A DNA stretch of 64,000 nucleotides from an uncultured Eubacteriales bacterium (GTDB taxonomy: Bacteria; Bacillota; Clostridia; Oscillospirales; Oscillospiraceae). A model generated the notes under the pieces. That model saw only the letters and a program-made list of their open reading frames with translations. It was not told where the DNA came from and made no database searches. A program made the position numbers and the translations under genes. The stretch is from assembly GCA_900317855.1 (NCBI GenBank), contig ONIG01000001.1:1-64000 (forward strand), written 5' to 3'. Below are positions 6,053 to 56,882 of the stretch, piece after piece (the stretch's first letter is position 1; each line of letters opens with the position of its first letter).

Positions 6053-7372
6053 ATCTGTGCAGCTGCGGCGCACCGTGCGCAGCAGCAGTGTGAAGCTGAG
6101 CGTGAAGTTCACACACTCGTTGAAATACAAAATGAAGATGTACCCAGCCAGCCCGAACCTCGGCAGCAGCACCCACACGAGCACCACGCCGAGCGTGGCG
6201 TCGAGCACGTTGATGGCCATGCAGCGCGTCTGCTGGCCGAGTCCGCGCAGGCAGCCGTCGGTCACGGTGTCGAGATACATCACCGACACGAGCGGGGCCA
6301 GCAGCCGGATATACCGCCCCGCGTCGTCCGAGTGGTAGATCAGCCGCCCGAGCGGCCCGGAAAACGCCAGCAGCAGCACGGCCGTGCCGCACGCGAACAG
6401 CAGGCACCGATACAGCAGCGTGCGCACCAGCCGCCGGATATCTCCGCACCGGCCGGAGACCTGCGCCGTTGTCAGCTCCGGCACGAGCAGATCCGCCAGC
6501 GCGTACAGCAGGCACGAGGGGAAGAGCACCACCGGCAGCGCCATGCCGTGTACGATGCCATAGCCCGCGAGCGCGCGGTCGGCCGACAGGCCGGAGCTTT
6601 TGAGCCCCCGCGGGATGAGCAGGTGCTCCAGCGTCGTCAGCGATGTGCGCGCATAGGCCGACACGGCCAGCGGCAGCGCCACGGCGAGCATCCGCCGCGT
6701 CAGGTGCGGCACGGTGTCGCCGCCGCGGCGGTATTTGCGCCGGTCGAGTGCGTACACCGCCGTCATCAGCAGCAGCGACACCACGTCCGCGCACGCGCCG
6801 CCCGCCGTGACGGCGGCGCAGCTCTGCTCCAGGTCGCCGGCGGCCGCAAAGGACAAAAACCACATCACGCACGTGATGCTCACCAGCTGTTCGAGCAGGT
6901 GCACGAGCGTCGGCTTCCACACGCGGCCGGAGGCGGTGAAATATCCGTCCATAACCGACGAGAGCGCGATGCACGGCAGGCTGATGCTCGTGATGCGCAG
7001 CGAGCGCACCGTGCGCGCGTCGCCGATCCAGAGAAAGCCCACGGGCTCGGCCAGAAAATACACCATCGTGCCCGCGCACAGGCCGAAAAACAGCGCGTAG
7101 CACGCGCACCGGCGCATTGCCCCCGTGACGCCCGCGCCGCGCTCGAGCCCCATTTCCTCGGAGATCAGGCGCGTGGTGGCAAAGCGGATGCCGGAGATGG
7201 CGAAGGTGGCAAACAGCACGCTCACCGACATGACGAGCTGGTACAGCCCGATGCCGGCCGCGCCGATGCGCCCGACGATCCACGCCTGAAAGATGAGCCC
7301 GATGCAGCGCATCACGATCGACGAGCCGGTCATGAGCGCGGTGTTGACGATGAGCCTGCGATTTGTGTGCAC
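6032..7372 (-). CDS. SpoVB/MATE-like polysaccharide flippase
   Basis: A 446-residue multi-pass membrane protein (about 12-14 segments) of the MOP superfamily, closest in style to the SpoVB/oligosaccharide flippase group: RLIVNTALMTGSSIVMRCIG at the start and paired repeats of the fold. It probably moves a lipid-linked glycan precursor across the membrane. The GTG at 7372 is preferred, because GGGAGG lies eight bases upstream; the longer ATG frame at 7465 would read through the terminator of tagD. It is last in the leftward polymer cluster and may be a separate transcript. The exact substrate, and a sporulation role, cannot be read from sequence. Confidence 0.8.
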   Translation of the reverse strand: MHTNRRLIVNTALMTGSSIVMRCIGLIFQAWIVGRIGAAGIGLYQLVMSVSVLFATFAISGIRFATTRLISEEMGLERGAGVTGAMRRCACYALFFGLCAGTMVYFLAEPVGFLWIGDARTVRSLRITSISLPCIALSSVMDGYFTASGRVWKPTLVHLLEQLVSITCVMWFLSFAAAGDLEQSCAAVTAGGACADVVSLLLMTAVYALDRRKYRRGGDTVPHLTRRMLAVALPLAVSAYARTSLTTLEHLLIPRGLKSSGLSADRALAGYGIVHGMALPVVLFPSCLLYALADLLVPELTTAQVSGRCGDIRRLVRTLLYRCLLFACGTAVLLLAFSGPLGRLIYHSDDAGRYIRLLAPLVSVMYLDTVTDGCLRGLGQQTRCMAINVLDATLGVVLVWVLLPRFGLAGYIFILYFNECVNFTLSFTLLLRTVRRSCTDEKPPAG

Positions 7373-51043: not shown

Positions 51044-52774
51044 ATGAATGCTGCTGTAATTCTGATTGTTGGCATTGCCATTCTCGCCTGTGGTTACATT
51101 TTCTACGGCGGATGGCTGTCCAAACAGTGGGGCATCGACCCGTCCCGCCCGACGCCGGCTCACGAGCTGGAAGACGGCATGGACTACTGCCCTGCAAAGG
51201 CCCCTGTTCTGATGGGTCACCACTTCTCCTCCATCGCGGGCGCCGGCCCGATCAACGGCCCGATCCAGGCCGCTGTTTTCGGCTGGGTTCCGGTGCTGCT
51301 GTGGGTTCTCATCGGCGGCATCTTCTTCGGTGGTGTGCATGACTACGGCGCACTGTTTGCCTCTGTCCGCAATGACGGCCAGTCCATCGGTACCGTTGTT
51401 GAGACCAGCATCAGCAAGAAGGCCAAGCGCCTGTTCCTCATCTTCTCTTACCTGACCCTGATCCTGGTCGTGGCCGCGTTCGCGTCCATCGTTGCCAATA
51501 CGTTCAAGGCCACCTATGTGGACGGTGTTGTGGATGTGGCGGCTTCTGCGGCCAACGCCACGACGGCCATCATCTCGCTGCTGTTCATCGTTCTGGCCAT
51601 CTTCTTCGGCTTCTTCGTGTACCGCAGAAATGCGCCGATCGGCGTGTCCACGGTCATCGGTGTTGTCTGCATCGCTCTGATCATGTGGCTCGGCATCAAG
51701 TGGCATCCGATCTATCTGAGCTACCAGACCTGGATGATCATCTGCGGCCTCTACATTTTGGTCGCTTCCGTCACGCCTGTGTGGATCCTGCTCCAGCCGC
51801 GTGACTACCTCAGCTCGTTCCTGCTGTATGCGATGATGATCCTCGCGGTCATCGGCGTCATTGGCTGCCACCCGACGCTGGATATGCCTGCGTTCACCGG
51901 CTTCAAAGACACCATCGCCCCGACGGGCAGCTCCCTTGGCTATATGTTCCCGGCTCTGTTCGTCACCATTGCCTGCGGCGCCATCTCCGGCTTCCACTCC
52001 CTCGTTGGTTCCGGCACGACGGCCAAGCAGCTCAACAATGAGAAAGACGCGCAGCCCATCGCCTACGGCGGCATGCTCATTGAGTGTGTGCTCGCGATCG
52101 TTTCCCTGTGCGCGGTTGCGTACATCTGGCAGGATTACAAAGCCGGCACGACCGTCACCCCGACCGTCGTGTTCGCAACCGGCCTGTCCCAGATGCTCGG
52201 TAAGGTCTTCGGTTCCGGCGCCGTGTCCATCACCTACACGCTGATGGTCCTGGCCGTGTCCGTGTTCTGCCTGACCTCTCTGGATACCGCGACCCGTCTG
52301 GCTCGCTACATGTTCCAGGAATTCTGGCTCAAGCCCGGTGAGAAGGCCGGCGATGCGACCGTTACCGGCGCTCGCAAGGTCCTCTGCAATCCGTACGTCT
52401 CCACCGCGATCACCGTCGTGCTCGGCATTGCCCTCGGCATGACCGGTTACGCAAAGATCTGGCCCCTGTTCGGCGCTGCCAACCAGCTCCTGGCCGGCCT
52501 CGGCCTGCTGGCCGTCGCCGCATGGCTCGGCAAGATGGGCAGAAACAACAAGATGTTCTACTTCCCGATGATCTTCATGATCCTCGTGACGCTGACGTCT
52601 CTGGTCTTCACCATCAAGTCCCAGATCACCGGTATCATCGCCGGCGGCGCTGGTGTTGCCTGGTGCTACATCCGCGCGATCCTGGCCATCCTGCTGGTCA
52701 TCCTTGCTATCGACCTCGTCGTCGAGGGCAGCAAGGCGCTCGCAGCGCAGGCCAAGGCCAAGAAGGCTGCCTGA
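51044..52774 (+). CDS. cstA: CstA-family carbon starvation / pyruvate transporter
   Basis: A 576-residue membrane protein with about 15 segments. The family start GYIFYGGWLSKQWGIDPSRPTPA and the block VLMGHHFSSIAGAGPINGPIQAAVFGW are classic CstA, as are GVHDYGALFASVRNDGQSIG and SLDTATRLARYMFQE. CstA/BtsT proteins import pyruvate or peptides; this one is shorter than E. coli CstA, as usual in Firmicutes. GGGAG precedes ATG 51044. It follows the hypothetical gene by four bases. A cUUCGg hairpin terminates it. Confidence 0.96.
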   Translation: MNAAVILIVGIAILACGYIFYGGWLSKQWGIDPSRPTPAHELEDGMDYCPAKAPVLMGHHFSSIAGAGPINGPIQAAVFGWVPVLLWVLIGGIFFGGVHDYGALFASVRNDGQSIGTVVETSISKKAKRLFLIFSYLTLILVVAAFASIVANTFKATYVDGVVDVAASAANATTAIISLLFIVLAIFFGFFVYRRNAPIGVSTVIGVVCIALIMWLGIKWHPIYLSYQTWMIICGLYILVASVTPVWILLQPRDYLSSFLLYAMMILAVIGVIGCHPTLDMPAFTGFKDTIAPTGSSLGYMFPALFVTIACGAISGFHSLVGSGTTAKQLNNEKDAQPIAYGGMLIECVLAIVSLCAVAYIWQDYKAGTTVTPTVVFATGLSQMLGKVFGSGAVSITYTLMVLAVSVFCLTSLDTATRLARYMFQEFWLKPGEKAGDATVTGARKVLCNPYVSTAITVVLGIALGMTGYAKIWPLFGAANQLLAGLGLLAVAAWLGKMGRNNKMFYFPMIFMILVTLTSLVFTIKSQITGIIAGGAGVAWCYIRAILAILLVILAIDLVVEGSKALAAQAKAKKAA

Positions 52775-53264: not shown

Positions 53265-53915
53265 GTGAAACGCAGTGAGGAACGCGAACGGAATATTCGG
53301 CGGGTGATCCACACGGCGCAGACGCTGTTCATCGCCGATGGCATCGCTGCGACACCCATCAGCCGCATTGCCGAGGCGGCCGGCCTGACGCCGACGTCAC
53401 TGTACCGCTATTTCCGTAACAAGGATGCGCTCGTGTTTGCCGCCTGGCGCGACGCACTGGCCACGTTTTTTACCGATTTCATGGAGCAGTATACGCGCGA
53501 GTCCGCCGCATGCACGACGGGGTATGAGAAGTTCGTCGTCTGCATGCACATTTACTTCCGCATCTATGATGACCAGCCGGAGTGGTATGCCTACACGCGC
53601 GAGATGTTTTCGGCCTACTCCGAGAAAAACACCGGCAGCGACGTCAACAATGTGTTCTGGAAGTACTATGACAAGGAGATCCCCGTCCCGGCGCTCAAGG
53701 CCCTGCGCGAGGGCGTGGCCGACGGCTCGATCCGTCCGGACGTGAATATTTACGCGGTGTATCAGTGTCTGCTCAACGCCTATACCGGCACGACGATCTA
53801 TGAAAATGTGTCGTTCGGTGTCTCGCCGGTCGATATTGTCCAGTTCACCGGGGAACTGCTCGTGAATTATATCAAAAATGAACCGGAAGCTCTGGCACTG
53901 TGCAATAAAAACTGA
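53265..53915 (+). CDS. TetR/AcrR-family transcriptional regulator
   Basis: A 216-residue repressor-type protein. The N-terminal domain (residues about 5-55) has the TetR helix-turn-helix: RRVIHTAQTLFIADGIAATPISRIAEAAGLTPTSLYRYFRNKDAL. The C-terminal part is an all-helical ligand domain with many aromatic residues (EWYAYTREMFSAYSEKN). Start is GTG 53265, set by GGAGG eight bases upstream. TetR proteins near fatty-acid genes often sense acyl-CoA or fatty acids; here the oleate hydratase gene is 1.2 kb away, so that is a reasonable guess but not shown. Confidence 0.9.
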   Translation: MKRSEERERNIRRVIHTAQTLFIADGIAATPISRIAEAAGLTPTSLYRYFRNKDALVFAAWRDALATFFTDFMEQYTRESAACTTGYEKFVVCMHIYFRIYDDQPEWYAYTREMFSAYSEKNTGSDVNNVFWKYYDKEIPVPALKALREGVADGSIRPDVNIYAVYQCLLNAYTGTTIYENVSFGVSPVDIVQFTGELLVNYIKNEPEALALCNKN

Positions 53916-54011
53916 AAAGCACGGATATATGTAACAAATGATACGGTACGAGCGTGCCAGTTTGTTAAGATAATTACAGAATTGCGGGGTATTTCTTTTT
54001 TTGCGCAAATA

Positions 54012-54034
54012 TGTTAGTGCAACTAACATATAAT
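54012..54034 (+). promoter_or_regulatory. TGTTA-N7-TAACA operator and -10 box upstream of the Crp/Fnr gene
   Basis: TGTTA (54012-54016) and TAACA (54024-54028) are a perfect dyad inside a longer TATGTTAGT/ACTAACATA palindrome. TATAAT (54029-54034) follows at once, so the dyad fills the promoter spacer. The same motif with the same spacing lies before oleate hydratase (55023-55039). Confidence 0.7.
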
Positions 54035-54049
54035 TGAAAAGCGGCGGAG

Positions 54050-54742
54050 GTGAGCAGCACGGATAAAAGCAAACGTTCTTATGACTTTACGGTGTGTCTG
54101 CCGTTCTGGAGCATGTTGACGGGCTCCCAGCAGCAGATGCTGCGCCTGAATACGATCGTCCGTTCATACCGCGCGGGGGACGATGTGATCTTTTCCATGC
54201 CGGAAAAAAACGGCCTGTTTCTCGTGCTCTCCGGCGGATTGCGCGTGTTTATTGCGACGGATACCGGCCGCGAGATCACGCTCATGTCGGTCGTCAGCGG
54301 CGGATGCTGCATGCTCAATACGCTCGACAGCGCAGCGCCGGGTGACACGGTCCCCATCCTGCAGGCGAGCAGCGACGCCGTGTTCGCCTACATCAACATT
54401 GTGGCCCTGCGCCCGCTGTGCGCGGAATCGCCGGTCGTGCAGCAGTTTTTGCAGTGCACGCAGGCGCGCAACGTCCAGACGGTGCTCAATAACATAGAGT
54501 ATTATTTTTTCCATCCTCTGCGCAGCTGCATCGCCCGCGTCGTGCTCGAAAAGGCCGACGCCCACCCCGAGGATGGCTTTGCGCGCATCACCCACGAAGA
54601 GATCTCCCACCACCTCGGCACGACGCGCGAGGTCATCAGCCGGGAGCTGGAGGGGATGCGCCAGATGGGCCTTCTGCGCACCGGCCGCGGCAAGATCTAT
54701 GTGCTCGATCGCCCTGCGCTGGAGGGCATGGCCAACTTGTAG
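54050..54742 (+). CDS. Crp/Fnr-family transcriptional regulator
   Basis: A 230-residue regulator. Residues about 20-140 are the cyclic-nucleotide-binding-like beta barrel (VRSYRAGDDVIFSMPEKNGLFLVLSGGLRVFI), then a long dimer helix and a C-terminal winged helix with FARITHEEISHHLGTTREVISRELEGMRQMGLL. Cys residues are not arranged as in FNR, so the signal is unknown. The GTG at 54050 overlaps the AGGAGG site; an ACG lies exactly eight bases after it, so initiation needs care. A TGTTA-N7-TAACA dyad covers its own promoter. An 18-base inverted repeat terminator follows. Confidence 0.88.
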   Translation: MSSTDKSKRSYDFTVCLPFWSMLTGSQQQMLRLNTIVRSYRAGDDVIFSMPEKNGLFLVLSGGLRVFIATDTGREITLMSVVSGGCCMLNTLDSAAPGDTVPILQASSDAVFAYINIVALRPLCAESPVVQQFLQCTQARNVQTVLNNIEYYFFHPLRSCIARVVLEKADAHPEDGFARITHEEISHHLGTTREVISRELEGMRQMGLLRTGRGKIYVLDRPALEGMANL

Positions 54743-54775
54743 GGTGCGTTTGACAACCGGATATATCCAATTTTG

Positions 54776-54819
54776 AAGCTGTCAAAAAGCAAAATTTGCT
54801 TTTTGACAGCTTTCTTTTG
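54776..54819 (+). terminator. terminator after the Crp/Fnr gene
   Basis: Perfect 18-base arms (54776-54793 and 54795-54812), beginning AAGCTGTCAAAAAGC, are followed by TCTTTTG. Confidence 0.8.
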
Positions 54820-55022
54820 TGCTATATGACACATTTTGATTTGGCATTCGGCGAAAAACGGTCAAAATGCACAATAACAAATCGTCAATTTGGTGACATT
54901 CAACGAAACCAAGTGGTTATGTTTAATTATCGCCATTTACGTAACAAATGGTGCAGTAAAGACGGCGAAATGCGCTATATTGATAATTGTCAAACGAAGT
55001 TGTTTCTTTTTTTGGAGACAAG

Positions 55023-55039
55023 TGTTAGTGACCATAACA
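55023..55039 (+). promoter_or_regulatory. TGTTA-N7-TAACA operator upstream of oleate hydratase
   Basis: TGTTA (55023-55027) and TAACA (55035-55039) have seven bases between them, as in the Crp/Fnr promoter; both copies share TGTTAGTG. The dyad lies about 70 bases before the ATG at 55107, where an activator or repressor could act. The core promoter of the hydratase was not certain. Confidence 0.65.
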
Positions 55040-55106
55040 GAAGAAACTCGTGCAGCGGACTGCACAAGAAATACGGAAAACACATCATGAATGGGAGGTA
55101 CACAGA

Positions 55107-56882
55107 ATGTATTACAGCAGCGGTAACTATGAGGCGTTTGCAACGCCGAAAAAACCCGAAGGCATCGACAACAAGTCGGCTTATGTCGTCGGCACCGGCC
55201 TGGCCGGTCTGGCGGCGGCCTGCTTCCTGATCCGCGATGCGCAGATGCCCGGCGAGCACATCACGCTCTTTGAGCACCTGCCGGTGGCCGGCGGCTCCTG
55301 CGACGGCATCTACGATGCGACCAAGGGCTTCATCATGCGCGGCGGCCGCGAGATGGATAACCACTTCGAGTGCATGTGGGATCTGTTCAAGTCCATCCCG
55401 TCGATCGTGAACCCGGGCGAGACGATCTTCTCCGAGTACTACTACCTCAACAAGGAAGACCCGAACTTCTCCCTGTGCCGTGTCACCGAGAAGCAGGGCC
55501 AGGACGCCCACACCGACCGCAAGTACGGCCTGACGCCCGGCGCTGCCACCCAGCTGCTGAAGCTGTTCATGGCGACCAACAAGTCCCTCGAGGACAAAAC
55601 CATCGACGACGTGTTCGACGATGAGTTCTACGCCACGAACTTCTGGACCTACTGGCAGACCATGTTCGCGTTCGAGAAGTGGCACAGCGCCCTTGAGATG
55701 AAGCTCTACCTGCAGCGCTACATCCACCACATCGACGGCCTGCCGGATCTGAGCGCACTGCGTTTCACCCGCTACAACCAGTACGAGTCCATGATCCTCC
55801 CGATGTGCAAATACATCACCGACCACGGCGGAAAGGTCCTCTTCGACACCACGGTCACGAACATCGTCTGCGACTGCACCGAGGACAAGAAGGTCGCCAA
55901 GAAGATCGAGTACACCCAGGGCGGCGTGGAAAAGGTCATCGAGCTGACCGAGAACGATCTCGTCATCTGCACCAACGGCTGCCAGGGCGACGCGTCCGCT
56001 TACGGCGACAACACCCACGCGCCGGTCGTGACGGTCAAGAACGGCGAAGGCCCGTCCGTCGAGATGTGGAAGAAGCTCGCCGCGCAGGATCCGGCGTTCG
56101 GCCGTCCCGAGAAGTTCTTCAAGGACATCAAGGAGACCAGCTGGGAGTCCTGGACCGTTGACACGGCCAACAAACAGATCCTCGACGCCATCCAGAAGAT
56201 CTGCAAACGCGACCCGCTGTCCGGCAAGGTCGTCACCGGCGGCATCGTCACCTGCCGCGATTCGAGCTGGCTCATCAGCTGGACCATCAACCGTCAGGGC
56301 CAGTTCCAGGAGCAGCCGAAGGATCACTGCCTGATCTGGGTCTACGGCCTCAACTGCTGGGACGACAAGGGCGACTTCATCAAGAAGAATATGTGCGACT
56401 GCACCGGCATCGAGCTGGCGGCAGAGTGGCTGTACCACATCGGCATCCCCGAGGATCAGATCATGGATCTGGCCACGAACGAATGCAATACCACGCCGTG
56501 CATGATGCCTTACGTCACCACGTTCTTTGAGCCCAGAGCCGAAGGCGACCGCCCGAAGGTCGTGCCCGATGGTTCGGTCAACCTCGCGTTCGTCGGCCAG
56601 TTCGCCGACACCCCGCGCGACACCGTGTTCACCACCGAGTACTCCATCCGCACCGCGATGGAAGCGGTCTACACGCTCTGCAACGTCGACCGCGGCGTGC
56701 CGGAAGTCTGGGGCAGCGTGTATGATATCCGCGACCTGCTCTACGCGACCAGCAAGCTGCTCGACGGCAAGAAGCCGCTGGAGTTCCTGCTCCCGTCGGT
56801 CCTGCCGCTGCTCGACCTCGTCAAGGAGCCGCTGCTCAACAACGTTGTGGTGGATCTGCTCAAGAAGTATAATATCGTCTGA
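55107..56882 (+). CDS. ohyA: oleate hydratase
   Basis: A 591-residue FAD enzyme that adds water across the cis-9 double bond of unsaturated fatty acids, giving 10-hydroxy acids; formerly named myosin-cross-reactive antigen. The dinucleotide site is VVGTGLAGLAAACFL (residues 27-41), followed by MRGGREMDNHFECMWD with the conserved acidic residue, then AFEKWHSALEMKLYLQRYIHHI and, near the end, the FVGQFADTPRDTVFTTEYSIRTAMEA block. GGGAGG lies eight bases before ATG 55107. It is single, with a terminator after it. A TGTTA-N7-TAACA dyad is upstream. It can detoxify or modify fatty acids, for example those freed by the lipases. Confidence 0.97.
   Translation: MYYSSGNYEAFATPKKPEGIDNKSAYVVGTGLAGLAAACFLIRDAQMPGEHITLFEHLPVAGGSCDGIYDATKGFIMRGGREMDNHFECMWDLFKSIPSIVNPGETIFSEYYYLNKEDPNFSLCRVTEKQGQDAHTDRKYGLTPGAATQLLKLFMATNKSLEDKTIDDVFDDEFYATNFWTYWQTMFAFEKWHSALEMKLYLQRYIHHIDGLPDLSALRFTRYNQYESMILPMCKYITDHGGKVLFDTTVTNIVCDCTEDKKVAKKIEYTQGGVEKVIELTENDLVICTNGCQGDASAYGDNTHAPVVTVKNGEGPSVEMWKKLAAQDPAFGRPEKFFKDIKETSWESWTVDTANKQILDAIQKICKRDPLSGKVVTGGIVTCRDSSWLISWTINRQGQFQEQPKDHCLIWVYGLNCWDDKGDFIKKNMCDCTGIELAAEWLYHIGIPEDQIMDLATNECNTTPCMMPYVTTFFEPRAEGDRPKVVPDGSVNLAFVGQFADTPRDTVFTTEYSIRTAMEAVYTLCNVDRGVPEVWGSVYDIRDLLYATSKLLDGKKPLEFLLPSVLPLLDLVKEPLLNNVVVDLLKKYNIV

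Follow-up and report, generated by a model that had tools for sequence, protein, structure and literature searches.

The window analysed here is a 64,000-nucleotide stretch from an uncultured Oscillospiraceae bacterium. Its forward strand carries, in this order, a cstA-like gene (51044-52774), a TetR-family regulator gene (tetR, 53265-53915), a Crp/Fnr-superfamily regulator gene (crp, 54050-54742) and an oleate hydratase gene (ohyA, 55107-56882). A preliminary description of the locus had named the last two and left the tetR directly upstream unmentioned. The 591-aa OhyA matched the NCBIfam oleate hydratase equivalog NF010584 (849 bits versus 567, E = 1.4e-255) as well as PF06100 (8e-212), and the 216-aa TetR protein carries a TetR_N domain (PF00440, E = 1.7e-13; 50.5 bits, cut-off 24). 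The Crp/Fnr protein (230 aa from an uncertain GTG start) has a C-terminal Crp-type HTH (PF13545, E = 3.2e-13; 49.9 bits, cut-off 27), and its cNMP_binding domain (PF00027) scored 24.2 bits, slightly below the cut-off of 27.5, with 30.1 bits for the L105 orthologue. It belongs neither with FNR, the 4Fe-4S oxygen sensor, as no cysteine was invariant among nine homologues, nor with CRP, the cAMP receptor (35.5 bits versus 266 for NCBIfam CRP). A probable crp terminator lies at 54776-54818 (+ strand), where a T-rich run comes after a perfect inverted repeat of 18 bp, and ohyA has its own promoter in this genome.

Both crp and ohyA are preceded by a dyad, TGTTA-N7-TAACA, of which the 1.96 Mb assembly holds exactly two exact copies. 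One lies in the crp leader (TGTTAGTGCAACTAACA, 54012-54028, + strand, about +35 to +51) and the other in the ohyA leader (TGTTAGTGACCATAACA, 55023-55039, + strand); we propose both as TetR operators. The preliminary description had placed the two correctly, with the same half-sites and spacing, and the further shared sequence that it reported, TGTTAGTG, indeed occurs at both dyads and nowhere else in the window. When one mismatch was allowed, the window gave 3 matches versus 0.20 ± 0.43 in shuffles, and dinucleotide shuffling of each promoter regenerated the dyad in 0.09% (P1, crp) and 0.11% (P2, ohyA) of trials. A reversed control pattern matched once in the assembly, so about one chance match per genome is normal and two in adjacent promoters are not. 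A search for a wider regulon at one mismatch added no further dyad site in the window's genome, and single-mismatch matches in other genomes stayed at about the control level.

The similarity of the two promoters, noted correctly in the preliminary description, had been understated. They can be aligned over about 105 bp with a local score of 47 (the maximum in 2000 mononucleotide shuffles was 39), and they share a T7 tract and a second element that had been missed, GTAACAAATGRTRC, found at 53931 and 54941, about 80 bp before each dyad. Only two copies of GTAACAAANGNTRC exist in the genome, both at the crp and ohyA promoters, and the degenerate form GTRAC-N4-GRTRC likewise has only two copies in the window. 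The look-alike stretches, 53925-54030 and 54935-55041, each combine the shared element, the T7 tract and the dyad; they suggest a promoter duplication in the lineage of G000 and G001, two members of the window's genus, with a single such promoter in a third, G005.

We aligned the crp promoter with those of relatives, which have TTTGATAAAAT, and read a predicted extended -10 at 53960-53975 (TTTGTTAAGATAAT, + strand); a predicted -10 of the ohyA promoter, TATATT at 54976-54981 (+ strand), was likewise read from the sequence and the alignment. The upstream element is then centred at about -40.5 both at crp (GTAACAAATGATAC, 53931-53944, + strand), as a candidate class II Crp/Fnr site, and at ohyA, measured from TATATT (GTAACAAATGGTGC, 54941-54954, + strand), as a candidate Crp/Fnr site. 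In most promoters of the module the element reads GTRAC-N4-GNTRC, with the variants GTAACAAAAGGCGC in G176 and GTACCATTTCGCAC, in reverse orientation, in G005. With starts predicted from the extended -10, which is TTTGATAAAAT in most of them, 10 of 12 promoters have its centre at -40.5 or -41.5; for P2 of G000 and G001 the automatically chosen -10 gave -48.5, and -40.5 is obtained with TATATT, a better hexamer lying 8 nt upstream. Sites of class II Crp/Fnr activators are centred near -41.5, a position that the upstream element takes at these predicted starts and the dyad does not. The dyads lie at +28 to +60, downstream of the predicted start, and their odd 12-bp half-site spacing differs from that of the GTGA-N6-TCAC sites that precede paralogous Crp/Fnr genes in the genus. 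The 14-bp geometry of these sites is similar to that of the upstream element.

We searched 300 genomes of the family Oscillospiraceae for oleate hydratase. Conservation in related genomes, on which the preliminary description had staked its proposal, was found: the dyad is kept in all nine tetR-crp-ohyA loci (nine genomes), as TGTTAGT-N5-TAACA, the relevant core, invariant across 11 sites. The layout is tetR-[dyad]-crp-ohyA, in some with a short ferredoxin-like ORF before ohyA, and every ohyA module with the dyad also has crp. Among ten genomes of the window's genus, TetR and TGTTAGT-N5-TAACA occurred only in the three with ohyA (G000, G001 and G005). The sister genus g102 has the same arrangement in three of four ohyA genomes, and the MAGs L105, L106 and L111 combine the same gene order and the dyad with a divergent ohyA (57% identity). 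The crp-ohyA gap is below 80 bp in G005 and G176, so one promoter probably serves both genes there. None of the 34 remaining ohyA loci in the family (282 kb; L089 with only 200 bp of upstream sequence) had a dyad, TGTTAGTG or a gene with a Crp-type HTH; about four have a divergent TetR-like gene immediately before ohyA. A Fisher value calculated in the analysis counts related genomes as if they were independent, and it is not to be taken as a probability.

The g102 exception, G110, kept crp and ohyA behind a different upstream gene. No such TetR turned up in a search of its genome (97% complete), and in the aligned promoters the dyad is gone and the upstream element and the -10 are kept, as the element is in the other relatives. 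That tetR and the dyad were lost together is a single natural instance, and it illustrates how a single gene loss can tell apart the sites of two neighbouring regulators. Retention in G110, together with the class II position, makes the upstream element the better candidate for the Crp/Fnr site.

Two features of these loci were seen in passing. Three g102 genomes (L110, L108 and G110, the last at L062) have between crp and ohyA a short ORF in which we read two 4Fe-4S ferredoxin motifs; it is absent from the window. Inverted repeats ending in a T7 tract flank the predicted crp -10 in L110 (6660-6780), L109 (5160-5250), and L105 and L111 (both 6680-6760), so that the end of the tetR transcription unit and the start of the crp one, terminator and promoter, seem to overlap; in the window these repeats are weak.

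We also found sites of this kind with TetR homologues that lack a neighbouring crp. In L112 to L115 (L112 and L113 also bear the labels L191 and L192), a homologue of 28-31% identity lies directly before a DegV gene of the FakB-like fatty-acid-binding family (PF02645). The homologues' own promoters contain TGTTATAATNACTAACA, with a second copy, CACTAACA, in L114 and L115; as the left half overlaps the extended -10 (TGNTATAAT), independent evidence comes here only from the right half and from the repeats. A closer homologue in G138 (48% identity) precedes an AMP-binding gene, whose promoter region holds a 34-bp perfect palindrome, CTGTTATAATGTTAGTGCACTAACATTATAACAG (L193:1760-1793), with TATAAT embedded in it. 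Near fatty-acid genes, where the preliminary description had suggested looking, the dyad or its half-sites thus occur at DegV/FakB-like and acyl-CoA-synthetase-like genes, each with a TetR homologue. The TetR of G662 (44% identity) had no clear dyad, only a degenerate version, that of G198 (46% identity) had a half-site only, and 22 more distant TetR-like loci all lacked a dyad close to the gene. No dyad lies in the promoter of the window tetR itself, so autoregulation is not evident. The tetR-degV pairs, with ACTAACA or CACTAACA half-sites at the -10 (L112 5960-7500, L113, L114 and L115), are likely a group of fatty-acid uptake regulators in Oscillospiraceae.

FadR-type TetRs bind palindromic operators at fatty-acid genes, and the window TetR resembles them in fold and, weakly, in sequence. 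FadR is its best NCBIfam match, but at 38.2 bits versus 200 it falls far below the cut-off of the Bacillus FadR equivalog (NF053878). Acyl-CoA-binding FadR-type TetRs are among its nearest described relatives, FadR and KstR2 among its PDB and fold neighbours, and FadR with stearoyl-CoA or dodecyl-CoA among the nearest solved structures. The structure model, of medium confidence (mean pLDDT 75), has among its top matches the FadR proteins of Bacillus subtilis (with stearoyl-CoA), B. halodurans and Thermus thermophilus; all TetR folds being alike, the match hints only weakly at the ligand. Unlike FadR of Bacillus and Thermus, the window TetR would act on crp and ohyA, and through a different operator, TGTTAGT-N5-TAACA; a further likeness is that its homologues adjoin DegV and AMP-binding genes. 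Three kinds of fatty-acid gene beside one TetR group would point to a fatty acid or an acyl derivative as ligand, and by analogy with FadR-type TetRs such a ligand probably releases this one.

The computation establishes the sites, that they are unique and conserved, and which genes accompany them; from this we infer which protein binds where, in which direction it acts and to what it responds. Loss of the dyad together with tetR in G110 and its presence with crp-less TetR homologues led us to assign it to TetR and not to Crp/Fnr. We regard a three-gene oleate-hydration switch, with TetR on the dyads and Crp/Fnr on the upstream element, as quite likely on this reading of the sequences. TetR would bind TGTTAGT-N5-TAACA in the crp and ohyA leaders, at about +35, and block transcription, and a fatty acid or acyl derivative would release it and so derepress both genes. 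The Crp/Fnr protein would activate crp and ohyA from the 14-bp GTRAC-N4-GNTRC at about -41, which amounts to positive autoregulation plus activation of ohyA, and the outcome would be a fatty-acid-gated switch boosted by Crp/Fnr. Co-regulation of crp and ohyA, as first proposed, is likely, the promoters being linked by shared, phylogenetically conserved sites; control by Crp/Fnr of its own gene and of ohyA may hold too, through GTRAC-N4-GNTRC and not through the dyad.

That the Crp/Fnr protein itself binds TGTTA-N7-TAACA, and thereby controls itself and ohyA, was the claim of the preliminary description. The dyads do stand before these two genes, and no ohyA module with a dyad is without crp, but G110 has crp with neither dyad nor tetR, and dyads accompany TetR homologues without a neighbouring crp. 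The odd spacing and the place downstream of the predicted start also speak against it, a better Crp-type element is at hand at -41, and paralogous Crp genes have GTGA-N6-TCAC before them instead. This obvious guess is thus unsupported and probably wrong, and both the pattern of co-occurrence and the geometry led us to reject it as the main model and to judge it improbable. The recognition helices of both proteins are conserved, and comparing them does not discriminate between the two. Doubt attaches more readily to the other half of the assignment, as nothing ties the Crp protein directly to the upstream element. With TetR still on the dyads, the element could be the site of a third regulator or set promoter strength, crp being just one of TetR's targets and acting elsewhere, and the element's varying sequence (GTGAC or GTAAC, reversed in G005) would suit this. 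However, its 14-bp, weakly two-fold symmetric shape and its position at -40.5 or -41.5 fit class II Crp/Fnr sites, it was kept with crp in G110, and one more, dyad-less promoter in G176 has it. We hold this alternative to be unlikely, if a serious one.

The dyad might also act as RNA, since the predicted 5' leader contains it (at +28 to +60) and it could pair into a hairpin. Invariant half-sites and the lack of covarying pairs are what we expect of a DNA operator and not of an RNA hairpin; in addition, the inner positions are often unpaired, the dyad overlaps the -10 in the homologues and so precedes the transcript, and there was no Rfam match. We rejected the hairpin, with neither covariation nor an Rfam match, as very improbable. 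Hardly credible at all is that the dyads have no function and are similar merely because the ohyA promoter duplicates that of crp. The alignment over about 105 bp and the single promoter region of the operon in G005 and G176 speak for a duplicate, but the dyad is kept across genera and in the divergent ohyA lineage and the flanking DNA is not.

A connection of TetR with ohyA and one of Crp/Fnr with ohyA each have precedents, and the combined module is a new variation on them. In Lactobacillus, cis-9 unsaturated fatty acids induce ohyA together with a tetR; that TetR adjoins the efflux gene farE, unlike ours, and the excerpted text of the report mentions no Crp/Fnr partner or operator (PMC11429459). 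In Bradyrhizobium diazoefficiens, the Crp/Fnr-type FixK2 controls the oleate hydratase gene blr1289 (PMC9104804, PMC6515984), so the pairing of such a regulator with oleate hydratase, thought undescribed in the preliminary description, is already on record. It resembles our locus in having a 14-bp dyad near the promoter, and differs in its box, TTGATCCAGCGCAA, its microoxic signal, the absence of a reported TetR and its unrelated host (PMC9104804). The literature searched contained no combination of TetR, Crp/Fnr and ohyA with defined sites, nothing relevant on the operator string or on TetR-DegV-fatty acid kinase links, and no description of the switch that induces oleate hydratases in these mostly uncultured Clostridia.

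Hydroxy fatty acids from gut bacterial oleate hydratases reach the host, and the analysis yields a specific, testable assignment of operator and regulator. We lean towards the broader reading that, in gut Clostridia, TetR and a self-activating Crp/Fnr protein jointly gate oleate hydratase as a two-input switch. If so, fatty-acid hydration would depend on two signals, one from fatty acids and another that is possibly redox, and relatives would have put the same TetR-operator pair to further use at their FakB-like and acyl-CoA-synthetase-like genes.

The dyad-less promoter of G176 lies at L109:357-400, where GTAACAAAAGTTGC and TTTGATAAAAT recur in the layout of the module promoters. It is followed, within L109:350-480, by a strong hairpin and a T run, and this stretch is possibly a Crp/Fnr-dependent small RNA or an attenuated leader.
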